From Anaerolineae bacterium (GTDB lineage: Bacteria > Chloroflexota > Anaerolineae > Anaerolineales > Anaerolineaceae): DNA of 64,000 bases. Both the position numbers and the translations under genes were made by a program. The stretch spans positions 744,001 to 808,000 of the forward strand of contig JABUFD010000002.1 in assembly GCA_013314735.1 (NCBI GenBank). The letters run 5' to 3'. Below are positions 10,471 to 23,540 of the stretch, piece by piece. How positions within the stretch are numbered: position 1 is the stretch's first letter; every line of letters begins with the position of its first letter. Below the pieces are notes generated by a model. It did no database searches. It was not told where the DNA came from and saw nothing but the letters and a program-made list of their open reading frames with translations.

Positions 10471-13400
10471 TTAAAAGGTCAGCAGCCGATAGGCTGATTG
10501 GATTTGCCGGTGGTGGGCGATGTTTTCCAGGTAGGTCTGGCGGAAGGGGCTGCCTTCGGGGATCAGGTCATGTTTGCGCATCATCTCATCGTATGCGCGC
10601 TTGATGTACGGCAGGGCTTCCTCCCGGCGGCCATTGGCAATCAGTGCCTGGCCCATGCGGTACAGGATCCATTCACCGGTAATTTCGGCGGCATTGGTGT
10701 AGCCGTATTCCTCGTAAATCTGCACCGCCAGCTGTGATTTTTCCAGGCTCTGCTGCAGGTGGTAGGCGCGCTGCGCGCGGGTTTCGTCGTTTTGACCCTT
10801 GCTGGAACCGAGTGTGGCTGCCACCTTGCGGTGTACTGAACTGGCATGGGAAGCCCCGGCCATACGGTACTGTTGCGAGATGTTTTCCTGGCGTCCCTGC
10901 CAGTCAATTTCATCCGCCAGCTGCAGCGCGGTTTGCAGGCGTTCCAGGTCGTCCTGTTCATTATTGATCAGAATCTGCACCAGGCGGTAACCGACCCGCG
11001 CCAGTTCATAGACATAATGCTCCGCCAGGGGCTGGGCTTCATCCAGCGCCTGCTGGGCAGCGGCTTGTTCTCCTAACTCGTAATAGGTCTGGGCAATGCG
11101 CAGCAGTACAAACAGGCGCGTGGGCGAATTGACCAGCAGGCGGTTGCTTTCTTCCAGCAGCGACAGGCCGTGCGCCAGGTTGCCGAGGTAAATGGCTTCG
11201 ATCTGCCCGCAGTACATGAGCGAATTGCCTTCCGCCATGCGGCTGCCGATCTTGCGGCTAAGTTCGAGCCGCTTTTCTTCAAATTCGGTCAGCCAGCGGT
11301 AGTAATCGCCGTCGCGTTCAAAGCGCGGGCCGAGGACACTGAGCACGCTCATCTTGGAGAATGGGTCATCAATCGCCTCGGACAATTCCAGCGCCTGGTT
11401 GACATAGCGCATGCCTTCCTCATTCTGGTCGCGCCCCAGCAGGTAATAGCCGTAGTTCAGCAGCAGGTTGAATTGCATATTGACATCGTTCACTTCGCGC
11501 GCAATTTCCAGTGCCTGCATTGCTGGTTCAAACACATTGCCGTCCTGCGCGTTGGAACGCAGGAAGGTAATCTTGGCAAGGGTTTCCATCTCGCGCTGGC
11601 GGTCGCCAATGGTACGGGCCAGGTAAAGGGCCTCTTCCACCATGTCGCTGGTGCGGCGTGACTCCTCCGCCGTAAACAGGCTGTAGGCGGAGGGGTAGGT
11701 GTACATCAAAATAGCGTCAATCCGGGCGGTGGGATCATCCGCCAGGTCGGTTTCCGTCAGTTTCAGCACGCGCTCGGCATCGTCCTGCGACCCGCGGATA
11801 TCCGCCAGCATCAGGCGCAGCCAGCGGCGCGAGGAAAGGATCTCAAATTGGGTTTCTACCATCTCGCGGCGTTCATCGGCACTGTCCGCGCTGGAAATCA
11901 GCATCTCGCACAGGTCGGCTGCCTGGTCAAGGTGATAGAGGGCCTCTTCGTTGGCGTGGATTTTTTCGGCGCTTTCCGCCGCCAGCATGTGGTAATGCAT
12001 CTGGTGGCGCGGACTGCCGGCCATTTCGTAATGATGGGCCAGGAAGCCGTACACCTGCGACATGTTCTGCGGCTGGCCTTCCTGTTCGTGCAGCCATTCC
12101 TCCACCAACTCGGCACAGCGCAGGTGGTAGGCGGCACGCTGCGGCCGCAGCAGGCTTTCATAGGCGGCATCGCGCATCAGGTTGGAATTAAAGGTATACA
12201 GCATGCCCATCCCAAATTCCTGGAAGCGCTCCTTGATCAGCTGGTTGCGCTGCAGGGCGGTGAGATGCCGCCGCAGCAGCTGGTCATCCATTTCCAGGAT
12301 CTGCGCCAGCAAATGGTCCCAAAAACGGTGGCCGATTACCGATGCGACCTGCAGCACGTGGCGTTCTTCCGAGGACAGGCTGCCGATAAATTCCTGCAGC
12401 ATACCCTGCAGGCTGTCGGGGAGCTCATTCAGTTCCTCACCCGGTACCATCTGCCAGGTATTGCTGTTTTCATCAAAGGTGATGACGCCGCGGTCAATCA
12501 TGGCATTGATGATCTCGCGCAGGAAGTAGGGGTTGCCTTCACTGCGGCGGATGATGCCTGACCGGCTGTCTTCATCGAGTGAATTTTCACCGAGGATGAT
12601 GTCAATGAATACATTGCTTTCCTCTGTGCTGAGTGGTTCCACATTGATCCACACCAGACGGTGCGGATATTCGGTGCCGAGGTAATGGCGGAAGGACCAT
12701 GCCGGTGAGGTTCGCACCGGGCGCATGGTGATCAGGAACATGATGTTATGGCTATCGCTGAGTGAAAGGCAGTGACGCAGCAGCTCAATCGAGGAGGTAT
12801 CGGCCCATTGCAGGTTGGAGAAGGAGAGCATCAGCGGCTTCTGGTCAGAAAGGCGGCGCGCCCAGGCACGGATGGCTTCGAAGAAGTGATCCTGGTAACT
12901 TTGCGGGTCAAGGCCTTCCAGCATGTGCTGGCTGTCCTCATCCAGCGGGAGATCGAGGATGTTGGCGAGGTACGGGGCAAAGGCCATTTTGTCTTCACCC
13001 CAGATGGTATCGGCCTGCTGCCAGAAAGCGGCGGCTCGGCCGGCCTGGTCGGTGGCATCACTGCAGCCGCGTAGCCAGGCGTTCAACAGGTCAAACCACA
13101 TCGAGTACGGCCAGGACTGCCCATACGAGCGGCACTGCCCGCCGATCCACTGGATCGGTTCGGTGTAGGAGCTTTCCCCGGCTGCTGAGTTTTGCGCGGC
13201 CAGCATCCACTTGCGTTTGACTTCCTGCCAGCAGTGCGCGATCAGGTACGATTTCCCCATGCCCTTGTCGCCGTCAATCATCACGATGGAACCGTTGCCG
13301 TTTGGCAGGTTTTCAATGGCGCGCATCAGGCTCTCCACCTGTTCTTTACGCCCCACCCATTGCACGGCCTGGGTATACGCGCGCACTTCCATATCCAGCG

Positions 13401-14250
13401 GGCGCAGCGGGCGGTACACCTGAACTGGTTCACTGATTCCCTTCACCCCGATTTCTCCCAGGTCTTCATAGACAAAACGTGATTCCGTGAGCGCATGGGT
13501 GAATTGACTGACCAAGACTGTGCCCGGTTCGGCTGACGTTTCCATCCGCGCGGCTAACGCGATTGCCCCGCCCATGGCGGTGTTCTCAAAGTGATGCTGC
13601 CCGATAGAGGTAACAATCACTTCGCCGGTGTTGATGCCCACCCGCAGCTTGAGGTCAATTTCGGGGTATTGTTTTTTGATCTGCTGCGCGAAGCTATTAA
13701 ACGAACGCTGGATCAGCAGGCCGGCCAGGACCGCCCGTTCGGGATCATCTTCATGTACCGAGCGGGCCCCAAAGAAGGCCAGCACGCCGTCACCGCGGTA
13801 CTGGTCAATTTCACCGCCCATGCGGTAAATTTCCGCTTCCAGCAGGTGGAAGATGTGGTTCATCACATTCACCCAGTCCTCGGTGCCGATCAACTCCATC
13901 AGTTCGGTCGAACCGCGCACATCGGCCAGGAGCACGGTGGCCACATGCCGCTCACCGGTCAATTCCCGCACAGTGCTGGCATCGCCATTCAACGGCGAGG
14001 CTGGCGGGGGCATCAGATTATTCCCCTGGCGCTGCGGCAGCACGCCCGGAGCGGCAACCGCGCGCCGCAGAGCAGGCGCCGCGGTACGGTCCGTCAGCGC
14101 ATTTCCGCACATGCCGCAAAAACGGGCTGGCTGGGGGTTGGCATACTGGCAGTTGGGGCAGATCCTCGCCAGTGACGTGCCGCACATGATGCAAAAGCGC
14201 ATCTGCTCTTCGTTGGTATACGCGCAGTTGGGGCAGGGAATGTTTGCCAT
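10471..14250 (-). CDS. Zinc-ribbon / class III cyclase / AAA-ATPase / TPR signalling protein
   Basis: A 1259-residue protein. The ATG at 14250 (MANIPCPNCAYTN) is preferred because AAGGAAC precedes it and the zinc ribbon starts at once. Residues 5-50 hold two CxxC...CxxC zinc ribbons. Residues about 98-265 are a class III nucleotide cyclase with both metal aspartates (LLADVRGST and QYRGDGVLAFFG) and RVGINTGEV. Residues about 310-600 are a STAND/AAA ATPase with Walker A GDKGMGKS near 325. From about 770 to the end come TPR-like helical repeats. It probably makes cAMP (or cGMP) under control of a ligand or partner bound by the repeats. No transmembrane segment. Confidence 0.88.
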   Translation of the reverse strand: MANIPCPNCAYTNEEQMRFCIMCGTSLARICPNCQYANPQPARFCGMCGNALTDRTAAPALRRAVAAPGVLPQRQGNNLMPPPASPLNGDASTVRELTGERHVATVLLADVRGSTELMELIGTEDWVNVMNHIFHLLEAEIYRMGGEIDQYRGDGVLAFFGARSVHEDDPERAVLAGLLIQRSFNSFAQQIKKQYPEIDLKLRVGINTGEVIVTSIGQHHFENTAMGGAIALAARMETSAEPGTVLVSQFTHALTESRFVYEDLGEIGVKGISEPVQVYRPLRPLDMEVRAYTQAVQWVGRKEQVESLMRAIENLPNGNGSIVMIDGDKGMGKSYLIAHCWQEVKRKWMLAAQNSAAGESSYTEPIQWIGGQCRSYGQSWPYSMWFDLLNAWLRGCSDATDQAGRAAAFWQQADTIWGEDKMAFAPYLANILDLPLDEDSQHMLEGLDPQSYQDHFFEAIRAWARRLSDQKPLMLSFSNLQWADTSSIELLRHCLSLSDSHNIMFLITMRPVRTSPAWSFRHYLGTEYPHRLVWINVEPLSTEESNVFIDIILGENSLDEDSRSGIIRRSEGNPYFLREIINAMIDRGVITFDENSNTWQMVPGEELNELPDSLQGMLQEFIGSLSSEERHVLQVASVIGHRFWDHLLAQILEMDDQLLRRHLTALQRNQLIKERFQEFGMGMLYTFNSNLMRDAAYESLLRPQRAAYHLRCAELVEEWLHEQEGQPQNMSQVYGFLAHHYEMAGSPRHQMHYHMLAAESAEKIHANEEALYHLDQAADLCEMLISSADSADERREMVETQFEILSSRRWLRLMLADIRGSQDDAERVLKLTETDLADDPTARIDAILMYTYPSAYSLFTAEESRRTSDMVEEALYLARTIGDRQREMETLAKITFLRSNAQDGNVFEPAMQALEIAREVNDVNMQFNLLLNYGYYLLGRDQNEEGMRYVNQALELSEAIDDPFSKMSVLSVLGPRFERDGDYYRWLTEFEEKRLELSRKIGSRMAEGNSLMYCGQIEAIYLGNLAHGLSLLEESNRLLVNSPTRLFVLLRIAQTYYELGEQAAAQQALDEAQPLAEHYVYELARVGYRLVQILINNEQDDLERLQTALQLADEIDWQGRQENISQQYRMAGASHASSVHRKVAATLGSSKGQNDETRAQRAYHLQQSLEKSQLAVQIYEEYGYTNAAEITGEWILYRMGQALIANGRREEALPYIKRAYDEMMRKHDLIPEGSPFRQTYLENIAHHRQIQSAYRLLTF

Positions 14251-14269
14251 AGCTGTTCCTTCTTCATCG

Positions 14270-14275
14270 ATTATA
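14270..14275 (-). promoter_or_regulatory. -10 box (TATAAT) of the cyclase gene
   Basis: TATAAT reads on the minus strand inside the palindrome TCGATTATAATCGA (14267-14280), 19 nt before the start codon and just upstream of its Shine-Dalgarno. The palindrome could also be an operator. No -35 box is clear. Confidence 0.5.
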
Positions 14276-14329
14276 ATCGAATAATTTCCATCCGCGATTA
14301 TCCAAAATGACAATACCCGTTAAAAATGC

Positions 14330-17825: not shown

Positions 17826-18524
17826 TTACGCCTCCGACAGGTTCTCCAGGCGCAGCCCATGGCCGCGAACGGTAACAATGAATTCATGCTGTGGGTCAAT
17901 TTCCGCCAGGCGTTCGCGCAGGCGGCGCACCAGCGCATCCAGGGCTTGTTCGCTGATCCCCAGCGCGTCATGCCCCCATACAGCGGTGATCAGTTCCGCG
18001 CGGGTGACAACCTCACCCGGGGCGCGGTAGAGCTGCTCCAACAGGCGGAACTGGTTGCCTGAGAGGGGCGGATCCAGCTCGATCTCGCGGATGAATACCC
18101 GCCGCGCACGCACATCCAGGCGCAGGATGCCCTGGGTTTCAAACATTGATTGCGGCTGGGAATAGCCTTTGGCGGCCTGCGAAAGGTCGCTCAAGTCCAG
18201 CGGCAGGGTTGCATCAGAGGCCAGGTAGACAAACCCCTGCACCATCGCAACCTGGATCATATCGCCATCCAGCAGGTAGATCGGTTCGCGGATGCGTTCG
18301 CCGTTGCGGTACGTGCCGTTTTTGCTGCCCAGGTCTTCCAGCAGGACACCCTGACGGTCCTGAACCAGGCGGGCGTGCTCGCGTGAAACTTCCCGGGTGG
18401 GGATGACAATATCACAAACCGGGTCACGCCCGATTAACAGGGAGCGGTGAATTTCCCAGCGGTCGCCGTTGAGCGGCCCGGCCTGGGCTATTAATAGTGG
18501 CTGTTCTGCACCCATTGCATTCAT
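17826..18524 (-). CDS. FHA-domain winged-helix transcription regulator
   Basis: A 232-residue regulator. Residues about 10-95 are an FHA domain with the phosphothreonine-binding signature (IGRDPVCDIVI, SREHARL, LEDLGSKNGTYRNGERI). Residues about 128-228 are an OmpR/PhoB-type winged helix (LSGNQFRLLEQLYRAPGEVVTRAELI, then VRRLRERL and VRGHGLRL). The start has AGGAG seven bases upstream. It is transcribed divergently from a Ser/Thr kinase gene 378 nt away, which suggests that the kinase's phosphothreonine controls DNA binding. This resembles EmbR in logic, but here FHA precedes the winged helix and no BTAD domain is present. Confidence 0.88.
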   Translation of the reverse strand: MNAMGAEQPLLIAQAGPLNGDRWEIHRSLLIGRDPVCDIVIPTREVSREHARLVQDRQGVLLEDLGSKNGTYRNGERIREPIYLLDGDMIQVAMVQGFVYLASDATLPLDLSDLSQAAKGYSQPQSMFETQGILRLDVRARRVFIREIELDPPLSGNQFRLLEQLYRAPGEVVTRAELITAVWGHDALGISEQALDALVRRLRERLAEIDPQHEFIVTVRGHGLRLENLSEA

Positions 18525-18902
18525 CTTTTTTCTCCTCTACACTCCATTCCATCTCCCTGAAACGAACCAGCCTGTGAATGGGAGGTTTCGCGGACAATCC
18601 GGGTGATGGATGATGCGGTGACGGTTGGAAACCCCACCGGATATTTTGTGTTTTTTTCTATCAAAGCTGCCCGTTTTCGGGTTTTTATGCCTCTTAAGTT
18701 ATAATCATAACAAAGAAAAATCGATTCGCCTATTGCACGAACTGCGCTCAACGGTTAATCCTTGCTCAGAAAACATACGTTTACCCTACCAAAACCTGAC
18801 GTATTCGGGCATAATAATAGGCCGCACTTGCATTCCGGCACAAATCCTCTGCTGTCCAACAGAGCTTACAGTTAATTATAACGTGATTGAGAAGAAGAAC
18901 AA
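18525..18902. promoter_or_regulatory. Divergent control region of the FHA regulator and the kinase
   Basis: No gene is supported in these 378 nt. TATAAT at 18700-18705 (+) and TATAAC at 18877-18882 (+, 20 nt before the kinase start) are candidate -10 boxes. The reverse of the first reads TATGAT for the FHA gene. No clear -35 or operator was recognised. Confidence 0.4.
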
Positions 18903-19928
18903 ATGCCCATCCCTCTGCCAACTGAAGAAGTCCTTCGCGGACGTTACAAAATCTGCCGCGTAATCGGCCAGGGCGGTGCGGGCTGCATTTACCTGGCGGA
19001 TGACCTGCGCCTGGAAGGCCGCCAGTGCGCGCTGAAAGAGGTGGAGCATGACCGGTCTCTTTCACCGGAACTGCTGCAGGAAGCGCGCGACCAGTTCATG
19101 CGCGAAGCCACTATCCTGGCGCGGCTCGACCATCCCAACCTGCCCAAGGTGTCGGATTACTTCTCGATTAAAACACGGGATTACCTGGTGATGGATTTTG
19201 TCCCCGGGAAAGACCTGCGCACCCTGATGCTGGAAGCGAAACAGAAAGACCATTTCCTGGATGAAGCCGAGGTGCTAAACTGGGCCAGTCAGCTGGGGGA
19301 TGCGATTTCGTACCTGCACCACCAGGAAACTCCCATCCTGCATCGTGATATCAAGCCCTCCAACCTGAAACTGACCCCCAGCGGACTGTTGAAGCTGGTG
19401 GATTTCGGGCTGGTGAAGGTGGCCGCGCCGGGTGAGGTGACGGTAACCATTGTGCAGGGACAGGGAACGGCCATTTACACCCCGCTGGAACAATACGGCG
19501 GTGACAACACTCACACCGATGTGCGCTCCGATATCTACGCCTTTGGCGCCACGCTGTACCACCTGTTGACCAACACCGCGCCGCCGGTGGCACGGGAACG
19601 CTTCCTCAACCCGGAACTGCTTAAGGCGCCTTCCGATATCAACCCGGCAATCAGTTTTCGCACCGAACAGGCGATCATGTGGGCACTCGCGATGCACCCC
19701 GATGAACGTCCGGAAACGATCGAGGTTTTCCTCGATTCCCTGCTGGGTTCCGCCCCGCTGGACAACCGCCCACGTACCGGTAGTTTGCAACGCCGCGGCG
19801 GACCGCATTCGATGAATTATTACGCCAGCGCCCTGCAGGAGTTATTCGGCAGCAAGGTGGAACGTACGCTGTGGGCGGTTGCCGGCGGCGCCATGCTCTT
19901 CAGCCTGCTGCTTACGATCTTCTTCTAG
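18903..19928 (+). CDS. Hanks-type Ser/Thr protein kinase, tail-anchored
   Basis: A 341-residue kinase. The glycine loop is IGQGGAGCIYLADD (about residues 21-34), the ATP lysine K45 in CALKEV, the catalytic loop HRDIKPSN with D149, then VDFGLVK. After the kinase domain (about 12-280) comes a basic linker and one C-terminal hydrophobic helix (WAVAGGAMLFSLLLTIFF) with almost nothing after it, so the protein is anchored by its tail and has no external sensor. Substrates probably include the neighbouring FHA regulator. A PP2C-like protein is encoded 1 kb downstream on the other strand. Confidence 0.92.
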   Translation: MPIPLPTEEVLRGRYKICRVIGQGGAGCIYLADDLRLEGRQCALKEVEHDRSLSPELLQEARDQFMREATILARLDHPNLPKVSDYFSIKTRDYLVMDFVPGKDLRTLMLEAKQKDHFLDEAEVLNWASQLGDAISYLHHQETPILHRDIKPSNLKLTPSGLLKLVDFGLVKVAAPGEVTVTIVQGQGTAIYTPLEQYGGDNTHTDVRSDIYAFGATLYHLLTNTAPPVARERFLNPELLKAPSDINPAISFRTEQAIMWALAMHPDERPETIEVFLDSLLGSAPLDNRPRTGSLQRRGGPHSMNYYASALQELFGSKVERTLWAVAGGAMLFSLLLTIFF

Positions 19929-19965
19929 CGCACAGGCTGCTTCCGCATCCCTGGTGGATGATTGG

Positions 19966-20892
19966 CTATGGCTGGTAGGTGTAGCTGTAAGCCTGGCTTT
20001 CCCCTTCCGCCCCAAGGGAACCATAGAGGGAAATGGCGGCCTGGCTGTAGCCGGTAATGTAGGCCGCAGCAATCCCCATGCCCTGCAGGCGGTACAGGCA
20101 TTCCTGGATCACGGCCCGGGCAAACCCGCGCCGGCGGAAAGCGCTGTGGGTGCAGACACGTTCAATATCGGCCTCGTTGTTATGGGCGTCAATCAGGGCT
20201 TCACAGCCCGCCACCATGCGCCCATCCGGCGCCATCACGCACAGGTCGGTGGGGGCGTGGTAGATCGGGCCGTGGATGCTGTGGTTGTAAAAGCGCAGCT
20301 GGTGCTGGATGGTGTCTTCACTGGGCTCCGGCTGCCCGGAAAACGCGTCAGCGCGCAAAATGCGCTGCGCGCGGTAGTCGGGATGGGTTTGCATATCGAC
20401 AATGGTGAAACCTTCCGCCAAAGGCAGACGTTCCGGCAGCGGTCGGGTGAGGTTAAAGCGGCGGGAGAAAAATGGCGCTGACGGCATAAATCCCGATTGT
20501 TCCAGGATGGCGGCTTCCCGCTGCTGCTGGTCGGTCAGCTCAATCGAGAGGGGGTCCGGGCGGTTGGCCCATTCGGTCATCACCCAGGCCAGGATCTCCT
20601 CAAATAAAAAGCGGTATCCCGGCAGGGTGAGGATGGCCACATCCGAACCACCGCCTTCAGAAACAACGCAGCCTGCCAGGCGTCCGAAACCATCAAACCA
20701 CAGGTGCGCGTTTTCCCCGCAGAAGTCAGGATAGGCTTGTTTGCCCTCATAAATGCCGTATTTCCAATCCACCAGGCGTCCGATGCTCCAGGTGGAATGG
20801 CTGCGCATCCAGGTGTTGTGGTCGGTGATCATACAGGCGAGAGCGTAAAAATCGCCCTGTGCTTCGTTATAATCGCGGTGGGTGGTTTTCAT
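19966..20892 (-). CDS. GNAT-family N-acetyltransferase
   Basis: A 308-residue protein. The C-terminal half carries the acetyl-CoA loop (THSAFRRRGFARAVIQECL, matching the R/Q-x-x-G-x-G/A pattern) and a following GIAAAYITGYSQAAISLYGSLGA segment typical of GNAT motif B. The N-terminal half (residues 1-140) looks like a decayed second GNAT domain, so this may be a tandem-GNAT enzyme. Acceptor unknown. It starts 23 nt after the PP2C-like gene and is probably co-transcribed with it. Confidence 0.8.
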   Translation of the reverse strand: MKTTHRDYNEAQGDFYALACMITDHNTWMRSHSTWSIGRLVDWKYGIYEGKQAYPDFCGENAHLWFDGFGRLAGCVVSEGGGSDVAILTLPGYRFLFEEILAWVMTEWANRPDPLSIELTDQQQREAAILEQSGFMPSAPFFSRRFNLTRPLPERLPLAEGFTIVDMQTHPDYRAQRILRADAFSGQPEPSEDTIQHQLRFYNHSIHGPIYHAPTDLCVMAPDGRMVAGCEALIDAHNNEADIERVCTHSAFRRRGFARAVIQECLYRLQGMGIAAAYITGYSQAAISLYGSLGAEGESQAYSYTYQP

Positions 20893-20915
20893 TCGATAGA
20901 CTCTCTTTCAATGGG

Positions 20916-23540
20916 TCAGCGCAGCTGGCCCAGGAAAATCTGATTTCCGTATGCCACCAGCACCCATTGCCTTTCCGTCACGGTAAAGGCAGTGACGGCT
21001 TCATTTGGAAGGCGTTCGCCTTCGCTGGCGTAAAAACGGAAGGATTTATTGAGCTTCATCTGAACACTGAACTGGTACAGGGTTTGCTGCTCCTGGTCCA
21101 TCAGGTAATAGGACGGTGGGTAATCGAGGGCGTGAATCCCAATCCAATCCACCGCTTCCACATCTATGGCCGCACCGGCGGTATCGATGGGATTGAGGTA
21201 GAAGCATTCGCGGTGGGCGGCATCGATGGCATTGACCACGCAGGTCATTACCTGGTCATCCGTCTGCACGAACGCCATCGTATCACTGTATACATCCATC
21301 GCCTTCACCTGTGATAGATCCAGCGGGGCATCTTGCGAGAAAAACAGGTAAGGTTCTGCATCCAGGAATTTCTGGTCCTCGCCGTAATATTCCCACACCG
21401 CACGCATACCGGAATCGAGCATGTAGAGCTTTTCGCGTTCCAGTACCATCCCGCTGATCTGCACCCAGCCGAAGATGGGGGTGGATAACTTTTGCGGACG
21501 GGGCGGGGCATCAATGGTGCAGTAGGTGATGCCGCCGGCGTTGTCAATGCCAAGCAGGTGGGCGCCGTATTCGTTCCCCGGCGGCAGCAGGGCGATATCG
21601 ATGATCGGGTTGGTACCACCGCCGCAATTGAAGCTGGTATCCAGCTGGAACACCGCATCCTCATAAATGAAGTGCAGTACCTGCCCGTTGCTGCTGTCGA
21701 GTGCGAACAGGTCATGGTCATTGCTGAGCAGGAGTTGGGTGAGGTTGATCTCCGGTTTCAGGCGGCTGCCGACGGAATCGAACAGGGGTACCCTCACCAC
21801 CCCGGCTGCGTCATCGAGGGCGGTGTTGATCTCTTCCCGCAAGGATTCCGATTGTTCGGTACGGCGGTATTTTTCGGCTTCATCCAGGTAGGCGGCGGCG
21901 TTGAGCAATTTTTCTTTGCGCAGCGCGCTGTCGCGTTCCGTCATCGCCTGGTAGGTAATGGCATGGGCCTGGTCATAATAGGCGGTGTAGCGTTCCATAA
22001 TGCCGCGCTGGAAAAAGACGGTCCCTGCCACTGCTGCGACAATTAACGGCACGGCGATGGCAATGAACAACAGCACCCGCGGTGGCATGGGCAGTTTCAC
22101 GCGTTCTTTTTCTTCATCGGTTTGCTCAACCTGTGCCGGCGGGGTTGTTGGCTCAGCGGCTGCATCTTCCTTGCTGACCACCACCACCCCCTCGTTGGGA
22201 TCAATCTTGCGCAGTTTTAACCAGGCGGCGGCAAAGCGGCGCTTGAGTGCATCCACATTGGGCAGCGGCAGGCGTTCCAGCAGCGAGGGGCGCGGCTCAC
22301 GCGGGGCAACAGGCGCTTCGGCCGCTGGCTTCGCCTCTGCATCCGCATCAGGCAGGGCAGGCAGCACCCGTCGGGCTGGTTTGCGGCCGACATACACAGC
22401 CCCGGTTATGGCACCTTCCATCACCGGCTTGGGGACTTGTCCCCGGTTCCAGGGTTGTTCCACGGGAGCGTCAGCCGCGCCAGTGGAGGGTGTTTGATCT
22501 GTTGGTAGTGCTGTTGTTACCGGCTGTCCATCAACCGCGGGAGAAGGGGTTTCCTGCCGCAGTTCACGCGATGCCCGCCGCGCGGCAGCCGCCTGTGCGC
22601 GGGTTTCGACAGCGGCGGGTGGGGATTGACTGTCATCAGGTTTTGCGGCGGCAACTGCTGGTTTAACCTGTGCGGGGGTACTTTGTAAAACATTGATCGG
22701 CGCTGAAGCCTGGGCTTCGGCGGTGCGGTCGGCACTGGCCAGTTTCATGCGGTGAAACTCACCTTTGTCCCCCGCCTGGATTTGCAGCACCAGTGATTCA
22801 AAATCACCGGTGGTATTGCTTAACAGGCGGCGGCGCACGCTTTGCAGCGAGGGGCGCTTTTCAAAGGTGAGCGTCTGCCGGTTCCAACCCTGGGCCGGGG
22901 CAGGGGAAAACAGCAGCACATCCCCCAGGCGGGGGCGCGATTGGAAGAATTGCGGCTGCACCTGGTCGACATAGCCCAGCACCTGGGCATGGCTGGCGGT
23001 ATTGAAAAACGGGGTCATCCCATTTTCTTGCAGCAAAAAGGTGTACACAGCCCCGGCATGTCCGAAGTAGAAATCTTCACCGCGCAGCACAGCCATATTG
23101 AGCTTGGCACCCACCCGGCTGTCTTTTCCGCGTTCGAGGAAGCGCGCATTGAGCGCGTTGGCACACTCCCGCAGGCCGGCAGTGATCGAACCGCGCGCGT
23201 TGAAATAGATCCGCGCCGCTTCTTTGAGCCACTGCACCAGCTCCTCGCGCGGCAGGCGTTCCTGGCCGATGACCACGGTGAGCCACAGGAGCAACCGGTC
23301 CGCCTTACGGGCGCGCTGGCAGCGTTTGGGTGCGGCAGTGGTAAACAGCCCGTCCAACTGGTTGTTTTCCAACCCACCGGTACGCGCGATGGGCAACAAA
23401 TACAATTCAAAGCGTTGATTGGATGTACCGGATGTATCCACCTTGAGAAAGCCCTTATACCATGACTGGAACCACTTATTGTGACCCGGAGATGGTCTGG
23501 ACGCAGCCAGGCCGTGCTTCGGGTCATCCTCCAGTTTCAT
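20916..23540 (-). CDS. PP2C-like domain, transmembrane helix and beta-propeller-like external domain
   Basis: An 874-residue protein. Residues about 25-260 resemble the PPM/PP2C fold (LDGLFTTAAPKR, RGEDFYFGHAGAVYTFLL, RPRLGDVLLFSPAP) but the usual DGxGG metal aspartates are not seen, so it may bind rather than remove phosphate. Residues 270-485 are a Pro/Ala-rich linker, followed by one membrane helix (about 487-510, RVLLFIAIAVPLIVAAVAGTVFF), a helical stalk (YDQAHAITYQAMTERD) and a C-terminal part made of repeated strands (LLSNDHDLFALD, LLGIDNAGGITY, LYMLDSGMRAVWEY) like a beta-propeller. A minus-strand TTTATA/TATACT box abuts the start codon. It may sense wall or matrix state and act opposite the kinase. 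Confidence 0.72.
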   Translation of the reverse strand: MKLEDDPKHGLAASRPSPGHNKWFQSWYKGFLKVDTSGTSNQRFELYLLPIARTGGLENNQLDGLFTTAAPKRCQRARKADRLLLWLTVVIGQERLPREELVQWLKEAARIYFNARGSITAGLRECANALNARFLERGKDSRVGAKLNMAVLRGEDFYFGHAGAVYTFLLQENGMTPFFNTASHAQVLGYVDQVQPQFFQSRPRLGDVLLFSPAPAQGWNRQTLTFEKRPSLQSVRRRLLSNTTGDFESLVLQIQAGDKGEFHRMKLASADRTAEAQASAPINVLQSTPAQVKPAVAAAKPDDSQSPPAAVETRAQAAAARRASRELRQETPSPAVDGQPVTTALPTDQTPSTGAADAPVEQPWNRGQVPKPVMEGAITGAVYVGRKPARRVLPALPDADAEAKPAAEAPVAPREPRPSLLERLPLPNVDALKRRFAAAWLKLRKIDPNEGVVVVSKEDAAAEPTTPPAQVEQTDEEKERVKLPMPPRVLLFIAIAVPLIVAAVAGTVFFQRGIMERYTAYYDQAHAITYQAMTERDSALRKEKLLNAAAYLDEAEKYRRTEQSESLREEINTALDDAAGVVRVPLFDSVGSRLKPEINLTQLLLSNDHDLFALDSSNGQVLHFIYEDAVFQLDTSFNCGGGTNPIIDIALLPPGNEYGAHLLGIDNAGGITYCTIDAPPRPQKLSTPIFGWVQISGMVLEREKLYMLDSGMRAVWEYYGEDQKFLDAEPYLFFSQDAPLDLSQVKAMDVYSDTMAFVQTDDQVMTCVVNAIDAAHRECFYLNPIDTAGAAIDVEAVDWIGIHALDYPPSYYLMDQEQQTLYQFSVQMKLNKSFRFYASEGERLPNEAVTAFTVTERQWVLVAYGNQIFLGQLR

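Follow-up and report, generated by a model that had tools for sequence, protein, structure and literature searches.

The window, a 64,000-nucleotide stretch of contig JABUFD010000002.1 from an Anaerolineae bacterium (order Anaerolineales, class Anaerolineae, phylum Chloroflexota), contains two divergent genes, one for a transcriptional regulator and one for a Hanks-type Ser/Thr kinase, that together look like a compact kinase-to-DNA switch built unlike the known two-component systems. The regulator, an open reading frame (ORF) of 232 aa (17826-18524, -), matches two Pfam families, an FHA domain (PF00498, residues 30–92, E 9e-21; 18249-18437, -) followed by an OmpR/PhoB-type winged helix (Trans_reg_C, PF00486, residues 153–225, E 7e-18; 17850-18068, -). 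In the Pfam search of this protein neither a BTAD nor a receiver domain was matched, the FHA domain occupying the position of the latter. The kinase of 341 aa (18903-19928, +; PF00069, E 2e-35) is tail-anchored, as judged from a hydropathy profile with a single hydrophobic stretch at the extreme C terminus (residues 323–341; 19869-19925, +). The two genes are separated by 378 bp (18525-18902), presumed to be a shared promoter/operator region. A preliminary description of this DNA had read the regulator as an FHA–winged-helix protein with the domain order of EmbR reversed and without a BTAD, divergent from a kinase gene, all of which Pfam and the gene layout bear out; its term "transmembrane" holds for the C-terminal anchor but not for an extracellular part, which the window kinase does not have.

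The pairing was examined in regulator loci fetched from 59 of 60 relatives within the order, 39 genomes of the class and 19 outside the class, in which the window proteins were placed by tblastn (L041, lacking a regulator, was left out of the counts, and no region was fetched for the weak match in G023). Only loci whose upstream DNA reached 1.5 kb or more were counted; a kinase was scored as divergent if it lay head-to-head with the regulator and within 1 kb of it, and a locus was taken to lack a kinase when neither tblastn with the window kinase nor visual inspection of the upstream ORFs revealed one. Within the order, the kinase is divergent in 53/56 loci with a median gap of 154 bp, and the remaining three comprise L066 (kinase at 2.7 kb), L053 (no kinase) and the dissimilar L100 (30% identity, codirectional kinase), which was scored as non-divergent yet kept in the residue counts. 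Divergent kinases are present in 24 of the 38 class loci (3 codirectional, 11 without an upstream kinase) and in 16 of the 18 loci outside the class (2 without). Because the 4.09-Mb genome of the window has 26 kinase-domain matches, chance adjacency should, by our own estimate, be about one in a hundred; the regulator–kinase pair is thus conserved beyond chance, the opposite of the unconserved pairing that the preliminary description had named as grounds for abandoning its proposal.

The regulator itself was matched in 224 of 298 class genomes (E ≤ 1e-25) and in 67 of 301 genomes of the phylum (E ≤ 1e-20), 31 of the latter lying outside the class in families f81, f82, f92, f118, f121 and f137. 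The other 234 of the 301 gave no match at that threshold, which rules out a phylum-wide regulator; it spans the class with some gaps and is patchily distributed outside it. Regulators outside the class share 34–44% identity over their full length, apart from L185, which matches the winged helix alone, and their common origin is based on this full-length similarity and on shared residues rather than on a tree. Named loci with the regulator belong to Anaerolineaceae, Bellilinea, Anaerolineales and other Chloroflexi, including a named isolate with the pair, Bellilinea caldifistulae GOMI-1 (L035). A scan of genome contigs among close relatives returned seven loci from Chloroflexota and, from Clostridia, one whose match was confined to the winged helix; a single plasmid record matched the regulator, over 28% of the query.

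In the FHA domain, we take G32, R33, S47, H50, S67 and N69 to be the phosphothreonine-pocket positions known from the FHA literature. The complete set of six is found in 113 of 114 aligned relatives, L185 being the exception (regulators shorter than 190 aa, in L096, L098 and L099 at contig ends, were dropped before residues were counted). Residues of the GR, SxxH and NG type are named as FHA motif residues in a 2005 survey (PMC1262709). The winged helix is similarly constant, with D196, A197, R201, R203 and R205 at 99%, and its sequence matches in the PDB include RegX3 and PhoB. Between the two domains lies Thr106 (codon 18207-18209, -), a candidate phospho-acceptor that is Thr in 114 of 115 aligned proteins, again with the exception of L185, in a linker otherwise poorly alignable. 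In AlphaFold2 models, residues 99–130 have a predicted local distance difference test score (pLDDT) below 50 (block values of 35–41 for 101–130), and block values for the FHA and winged-helix parts are ~67–85 over most of their length; the stretch carrying Thr106 is accordingly predicted to be disordered. A similar tripeptide, [D/E]AT, follows the FHA domain at a distance of no more than 35 residues in 11 of 20 further FHA proteins from the relatives and the window genome (L202–L221), as against one occurrence in the 4004 residues elsewhere in these proteins, which are mutually related, so that they do not count as independent cases. This tripeptide is possibly a phosphosite motif shared among FHA proteins. 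Most of the 20 proteins end, by eye, in a hydrophobic segment.

The catalytic residues of the partner kinases are intact, K45, HRD, N154 and DFG being kept in 98/98 aligned sequences (the window kinase uncounted, L100 included), with StkP, PknA and PknB as the nearest solved kinases. The activation-loop sequence T180-V-T182 (19440-19448, +), presumably an autophosphorylation site and, as we infer, the dock for the FHA domain, is likewise conserved among the kinases of the order and class (T180 in 80/81 and T182 in 81/81, L100 included). A C-terminal hydrophobic stretch is present in 82 of the 83 partners of tail-anchored type, the exception, L079, having undetermined bases at this position; the residues that follow the best hydrophobic window number 0 or 1 in 61 of the 82 and 17–38 in five. 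Outside the class, one partner (L167) is of the tail-anchored type, and the other 15 of 16 bear an ectodomain of 133–411 residues after the membrane stretch, which is Pro/Thr-rich by eye in those printed and contains a PD40 propeller in L169. A full kinase tree was built from 12 order kinases plus that of the window, 12 tail-anchored-type kinases from the class and near it (among them L167, outside the class), 11 of the 15 ectodomain partners and 20 of the 25 other kinase matches of the genome; its bootstrap was unsettled, and the tail-anchored partners and the 11 ectodomain partners placed in it fall apart. In a reduced tree of 33 rows, chosen after the full tree and with four long-branched rows dropped, a single clade of partners was rejected (log-likelihood 68 worse, p of the approximately unbiased test 0.00012). 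The trees thus leave two histories, a kinase replacement at the same locus or two separate origins of the pairing, and each points to a functional link between kinase and regulator.

It is worth comparing this pair with systems already described. OmpR/PhoB-type response regulators form a winged-helix output class with a kinase beside the regulator. The present pair resembles them in its Trans_reg_C domain and adjacent kinase, whereas FHA replaces the receiver domain and a Hanks kinase replaces the histidine kinase. The nearest working analogue is EmbR/PknH of Mycobacterium tuberculosis, described as a Hanks kinase together with a transcription factor that combines FHA with a DNA-binding domain of OmpR type, in which phosphorylation of EmbR requires the FHA domain and increases DNA binding (PMC4601284). 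Our pair is a variant of this known kind of system, with a clear evolutionary signal, sharing an FHA domain with phosphothreonine-binding residues and a linked Hanks kinase with intact catalytic residues. Membership in the EmbR/SARP family is nevertheless rejected, since EmbR is described as DNA-binding domain, BTA domain and FHA, in this order (PMC4601284), whereas here FHA comes first, the winged helix last and no BTA domain intervenes; the window regulator differs further in its 232-aa length, and its kinase in being divergent and tail-anchored. The order of FHA followed by a helix-turn-helix (HTH) domain is not unprecedented, as EspM (Rv3863) of mycobacteria is described with FHA at the N terminus and HTH at the C terminus, encoded divergently from a neighbouring gene and binding the shared intergenic region (PMC7002343). 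The partner gene given there is whiB6, not a kinase, the C-terminal half of EspM (aa 127–363) is longer, and its HTH is likened here to the winged helix by domain order only, not by a comparison with Trans_reg_C. By sequence, the best-scoring solved relatives of the regulator's FHA part in the PDB are GarA entries, with OdhI close behind. These proteins are reported to be phosphorylated at a Thr outside the FHA domain by an autophosphorylated kinase (PknG/PknB) on which the FHA domain docks (PMC8546545). Their ETTS phosphosite is, by the same account, N-terminal of FHA and no DNA-binding domain is present, whereas our candidate Thr is C-terminal of FHA; ETTS is not found in residues 1–29 of the window regulator, which sets it apart from the GarA/OdhI type. 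In the FHA-GGDEF protein DgcB of Bdellovibrio, too, FHA and an activating phosphopeptide from the same protein are described to control an output domain, although the output is a diguanylate cyclase and the peptide is N-terminal (PMC6733907). The 2005 survey mentions fusions of FHA to kinases, Chloroflexus among the examples, and in M. tuberculosis a clustering of FHA genes with kinases (PMC1262709). In the open-licence PMC literature we found no report of an FHA regulator with a kinase in Chloroflexota, or with this layout.

By analogy to GarA/OdhI, DgcB and EmbR (PMC8546545, PMC6733907, PMC4601284), we favor a two-gene phosphothreonine switch, which we hold about as probable as all other explanations taken together. 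In this predicted mechanism, the tail-anchored kinase would autophosphorylate its activation loop (T180/T182) at the cytoplasmic face of the membrane, the regulator would dock on the autophosphorylated kinase via its FHA domain, and the docked kinase would phosphorylate Thr106 in the flexible linker. The FHA domain may then bind phospho-Thr106, in cis or within a dimer (binding of an FHA domain to a phosphothreonine within the same protein is on record; PMC4601284), and thereby reposition or pair the winged helices, altering the binding to target promoters, which probably include the shared 378-bp intergenic region. Support at the level of sequence covers both genes, their pairing, the catalytic and pocket residues, Thr106 in a predicted disordered linker and the two kinase lineages; all steps of phosphorylation, docking, conformational change and DNA binding, together with the sign of regulation and the signal, are supplied by the model. 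Likewise, the core of the preliminary description, a kinase and a regulator acting in one phosphothreonine pathway, is strengthened by the pairing, the FHA pocket, the two kinase lineages and Thr106.

Several observations weigh against such a switch. The context of Thr106 is mostly [D/G/E]-A-T-x-P-L in the order and class versus mostly [E/A]-A-T-x-K-G outside the class, and therefore the specificity of FHA or of the kinase would have to differ between them. Thr106 also sits close after the FHA fold and could be structural, and the confidence of the AlphaFold2 prediction is modest (mean pLDDT of 69 for the best model and 49–63 for the others; five models, 8 sequences). Loci in which no neighboring kinase was found (11/38 in the class, 2/18 outside) keep the FHA residues and Thr106, L185 excepted, so that the neighboring kinase is not the only possible one. 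The tests on the kinase trees carried long-branch warnings. Finally, the k-mers enriched in the intergenic regions comprised -10 boxes, a leader motif and several others, and a repeated operator for the winged helix was not found among them.

A simpler explanation is that the FHA domain only holds the regulator on the autophosphorylated kinase at the membrane, Thr106 being structural and not a phospho-acceptor. The pairing, an anchor without an ectodomain, the T180/T182 loop and the FHA pocket need nothing more than this docking, which however leaves unexplained both the near-invariance of Thr106 within a predicted disordered stretch and the [D/E]AT motif after other FHA domains; we regard it as unlikely, though deserving serious attention. 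Divergent genes with a shared promoter are typical of autoregulation, and the adjacency might instead reflect gene control, with the kinase acting mainly on substrates elsewhere and the regulator reading phosphothreonine from several kinases to control the kinase gene and itself. The number of kinase-domain matches in the genome and the class loci in which no neighboring kinase was found would suit such feedback, but two kinase lineages beside one type of regulator fit a kinase–reader partnership better than a chance target gene, and this explanation appears rather improbable. That the 874-aa protein encoded about 1 kb beyond the kinase and read in the preliminary description as a PP2C-like sensor is a transmembrane sensor reversing the phosphorylation, as its remote likeness to PP2C and a member of its family near the regulator of one relative (G008, L071) might encourage, is very improbable and is rejected, given that its family occurs in 58/61 genomes yet, besides the window, in 1 of 117 fetched regulator loci (by tblastn), and that metal motifs are missing.

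This protein (20916-23540, -), separated from the kinase by a GNAT acetyltransferase gene (19966-20892, -; Pfam), gave no match to Pfam or NCBIfam. Among seven members of its family, SpoIIE was touched by two (best E 0.0033) and Stp1-type PP2C by one (E 0.039), and hhalign of the family to the three PP2C_2 proteins of the genome gave 75%. The DGxGG and SDGL motifs present in these three proteins are missing in the 874-aa protein and in six homologues; with no family match and these motifs absent, it is not assigned to the PP2C phosphatases. The genomes in which the family was found include that of the window, the three genomes without it are 65–80% complete, and the flanks of the fetched loci extended up to about 9 kb, or less at contig ends. 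Members of this uncharacterized family, in the window and in L187–L201, combine an N-terminal domain remotely like PP2C with a linker rich in Pro, a single segment judged hydrophobic by eye and a C-terminal part that is conserved. Its sequence suggests a membrane protein carrying a pseudophosphatase-like domain, and the protein is a bystander of the kinase–regulator pair.

On the kinase side of the intergenic region, a CATAAT -10-like box (18810-18815) aligns with the -10 boxes of the relatives' kinase genes, and a sigma70 scan of 18525-18902 found no -35/-10 pair. Conservation of this box in the anchored alignment is by construction, the box having served as the anchor, but the k-mer enrichment count is independent. 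TATAAT is present on the kinase strand in 52/55 intergenic regions of the order, and GTATAATA in 29/55 as against 0.25 expected (either strand). A further word, ACGCCGAA, is present in 15/55 of these regions, where 0.2 would be expected (either strand), at 43–78 nt upstream of the kinase start; it occurs 15 times in the 8.5 kb of the order's intergenic regions, always on the kinase strand, versus 24 times in the remaining 794 kb of the order loci on both strands. In nine loci (L170, L173, L175, L178, L179 and L181–L184), TGGTACAAT on the kinase strand faces TGGTATAAT on the regulator strand at a distance of ~15–25 bp, an arrangement that suggests overlapping face-to-face promoters.

A hairpin with the loop ACGCC(GAA) was detected in 28 of 55 kinase leaders of the order (z 9.4), among them L044, L046, L049, L051, L054, L055, L059 and L065. 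The stems flanking the loop differ in sequence between genomes, and in the 28 leaders with at least ACGCC the genomes' own flanks score 16.8, compared with 11.6 (standard deviation 0.55) after reassignment of the 3' flanks to other genomes; no permutation out of 20000 reached the observed score. The effect persists in the leaders with ACGCCGA only (n = 19, z 7.8) and is gone in controls with a shifted anchor or with leaders without the motif (z -0.3 to 1.6; the +30 shift having only 8 rows). Of the ACGCCGAA occurrences, 10/15 in order leaders are flanked by a stem scoring at least 15, compared with 4/24 outside leaders in the order, 13/32 in the class and 8/12 outside the class. MAFFT did not align the stem arms, and folding alone gave z -0.04 for the window leader, -4.2 for L065 and -1.9 for L044. 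A second, 5' hairpin is weakly supported, 61/20000 permutations being as high. No leader was hit when 19 loci were scanned with Rfam at E ≤ 1; the scan returned a tRNA in L018 and, at the regulator end of L004, a sub-threshold match to sraL. Neither the window's own kinase leader nor any of the 24 class loci with a divergent kinase carries the hairpin. We take the leader element to be an RNA hairpin with a conserved loop and, judging from the exchanged flanks, covarying stems; its role might, at a guess, be the control of kinase synthesis, in which case a signaling kinase would be under the control of a new RNA element.

To our knowledge, the genes controlled by bacterial Hanks kinases, and the readers of these kinases, are poorly known outside actinobacteria and firmicutes. 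The present pair persists across a class and in several families beyond it, the reader being of one type and its kinases exchangeable. It provides a system for experiment in which kinase, regulator, promoter and candidate phosphosite are all defined, also in B. caldifistulae GOMI-1. Tentatively, and as a possibility somewhat less probable than the switch by itself, the phosphothreonine switch may be part of a Chloroflexota "Ser/Thr two-component system", in which the regulator would be switched through its linker Thr, with the AT motif recurring after other FHA domains, the kinase would have been exchanged (tail-anchored in the class, with an ectodomain in several outside families) and the kinase mRNA of the order would often carry a new structured leader.

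As to neighboring genes, none encoding a CpXC domain (PF14353) was detected in the window by tblastn, but in relatives such a gene (e.g., L053:8084-9457, and in 42 other loci) is a more regular neighbor than the PP2C-like protein, being convergent to the regulator in 33/54 order, 10/39 class and 0/18 outer loci with room for it. Elsewhere in the window, positions 10471-14313 encode a 1280-aa protein with zinc ribbons, an adenylate/guanylate cyclase domain, an AAA_16 ATPase and TPR-like repeats.

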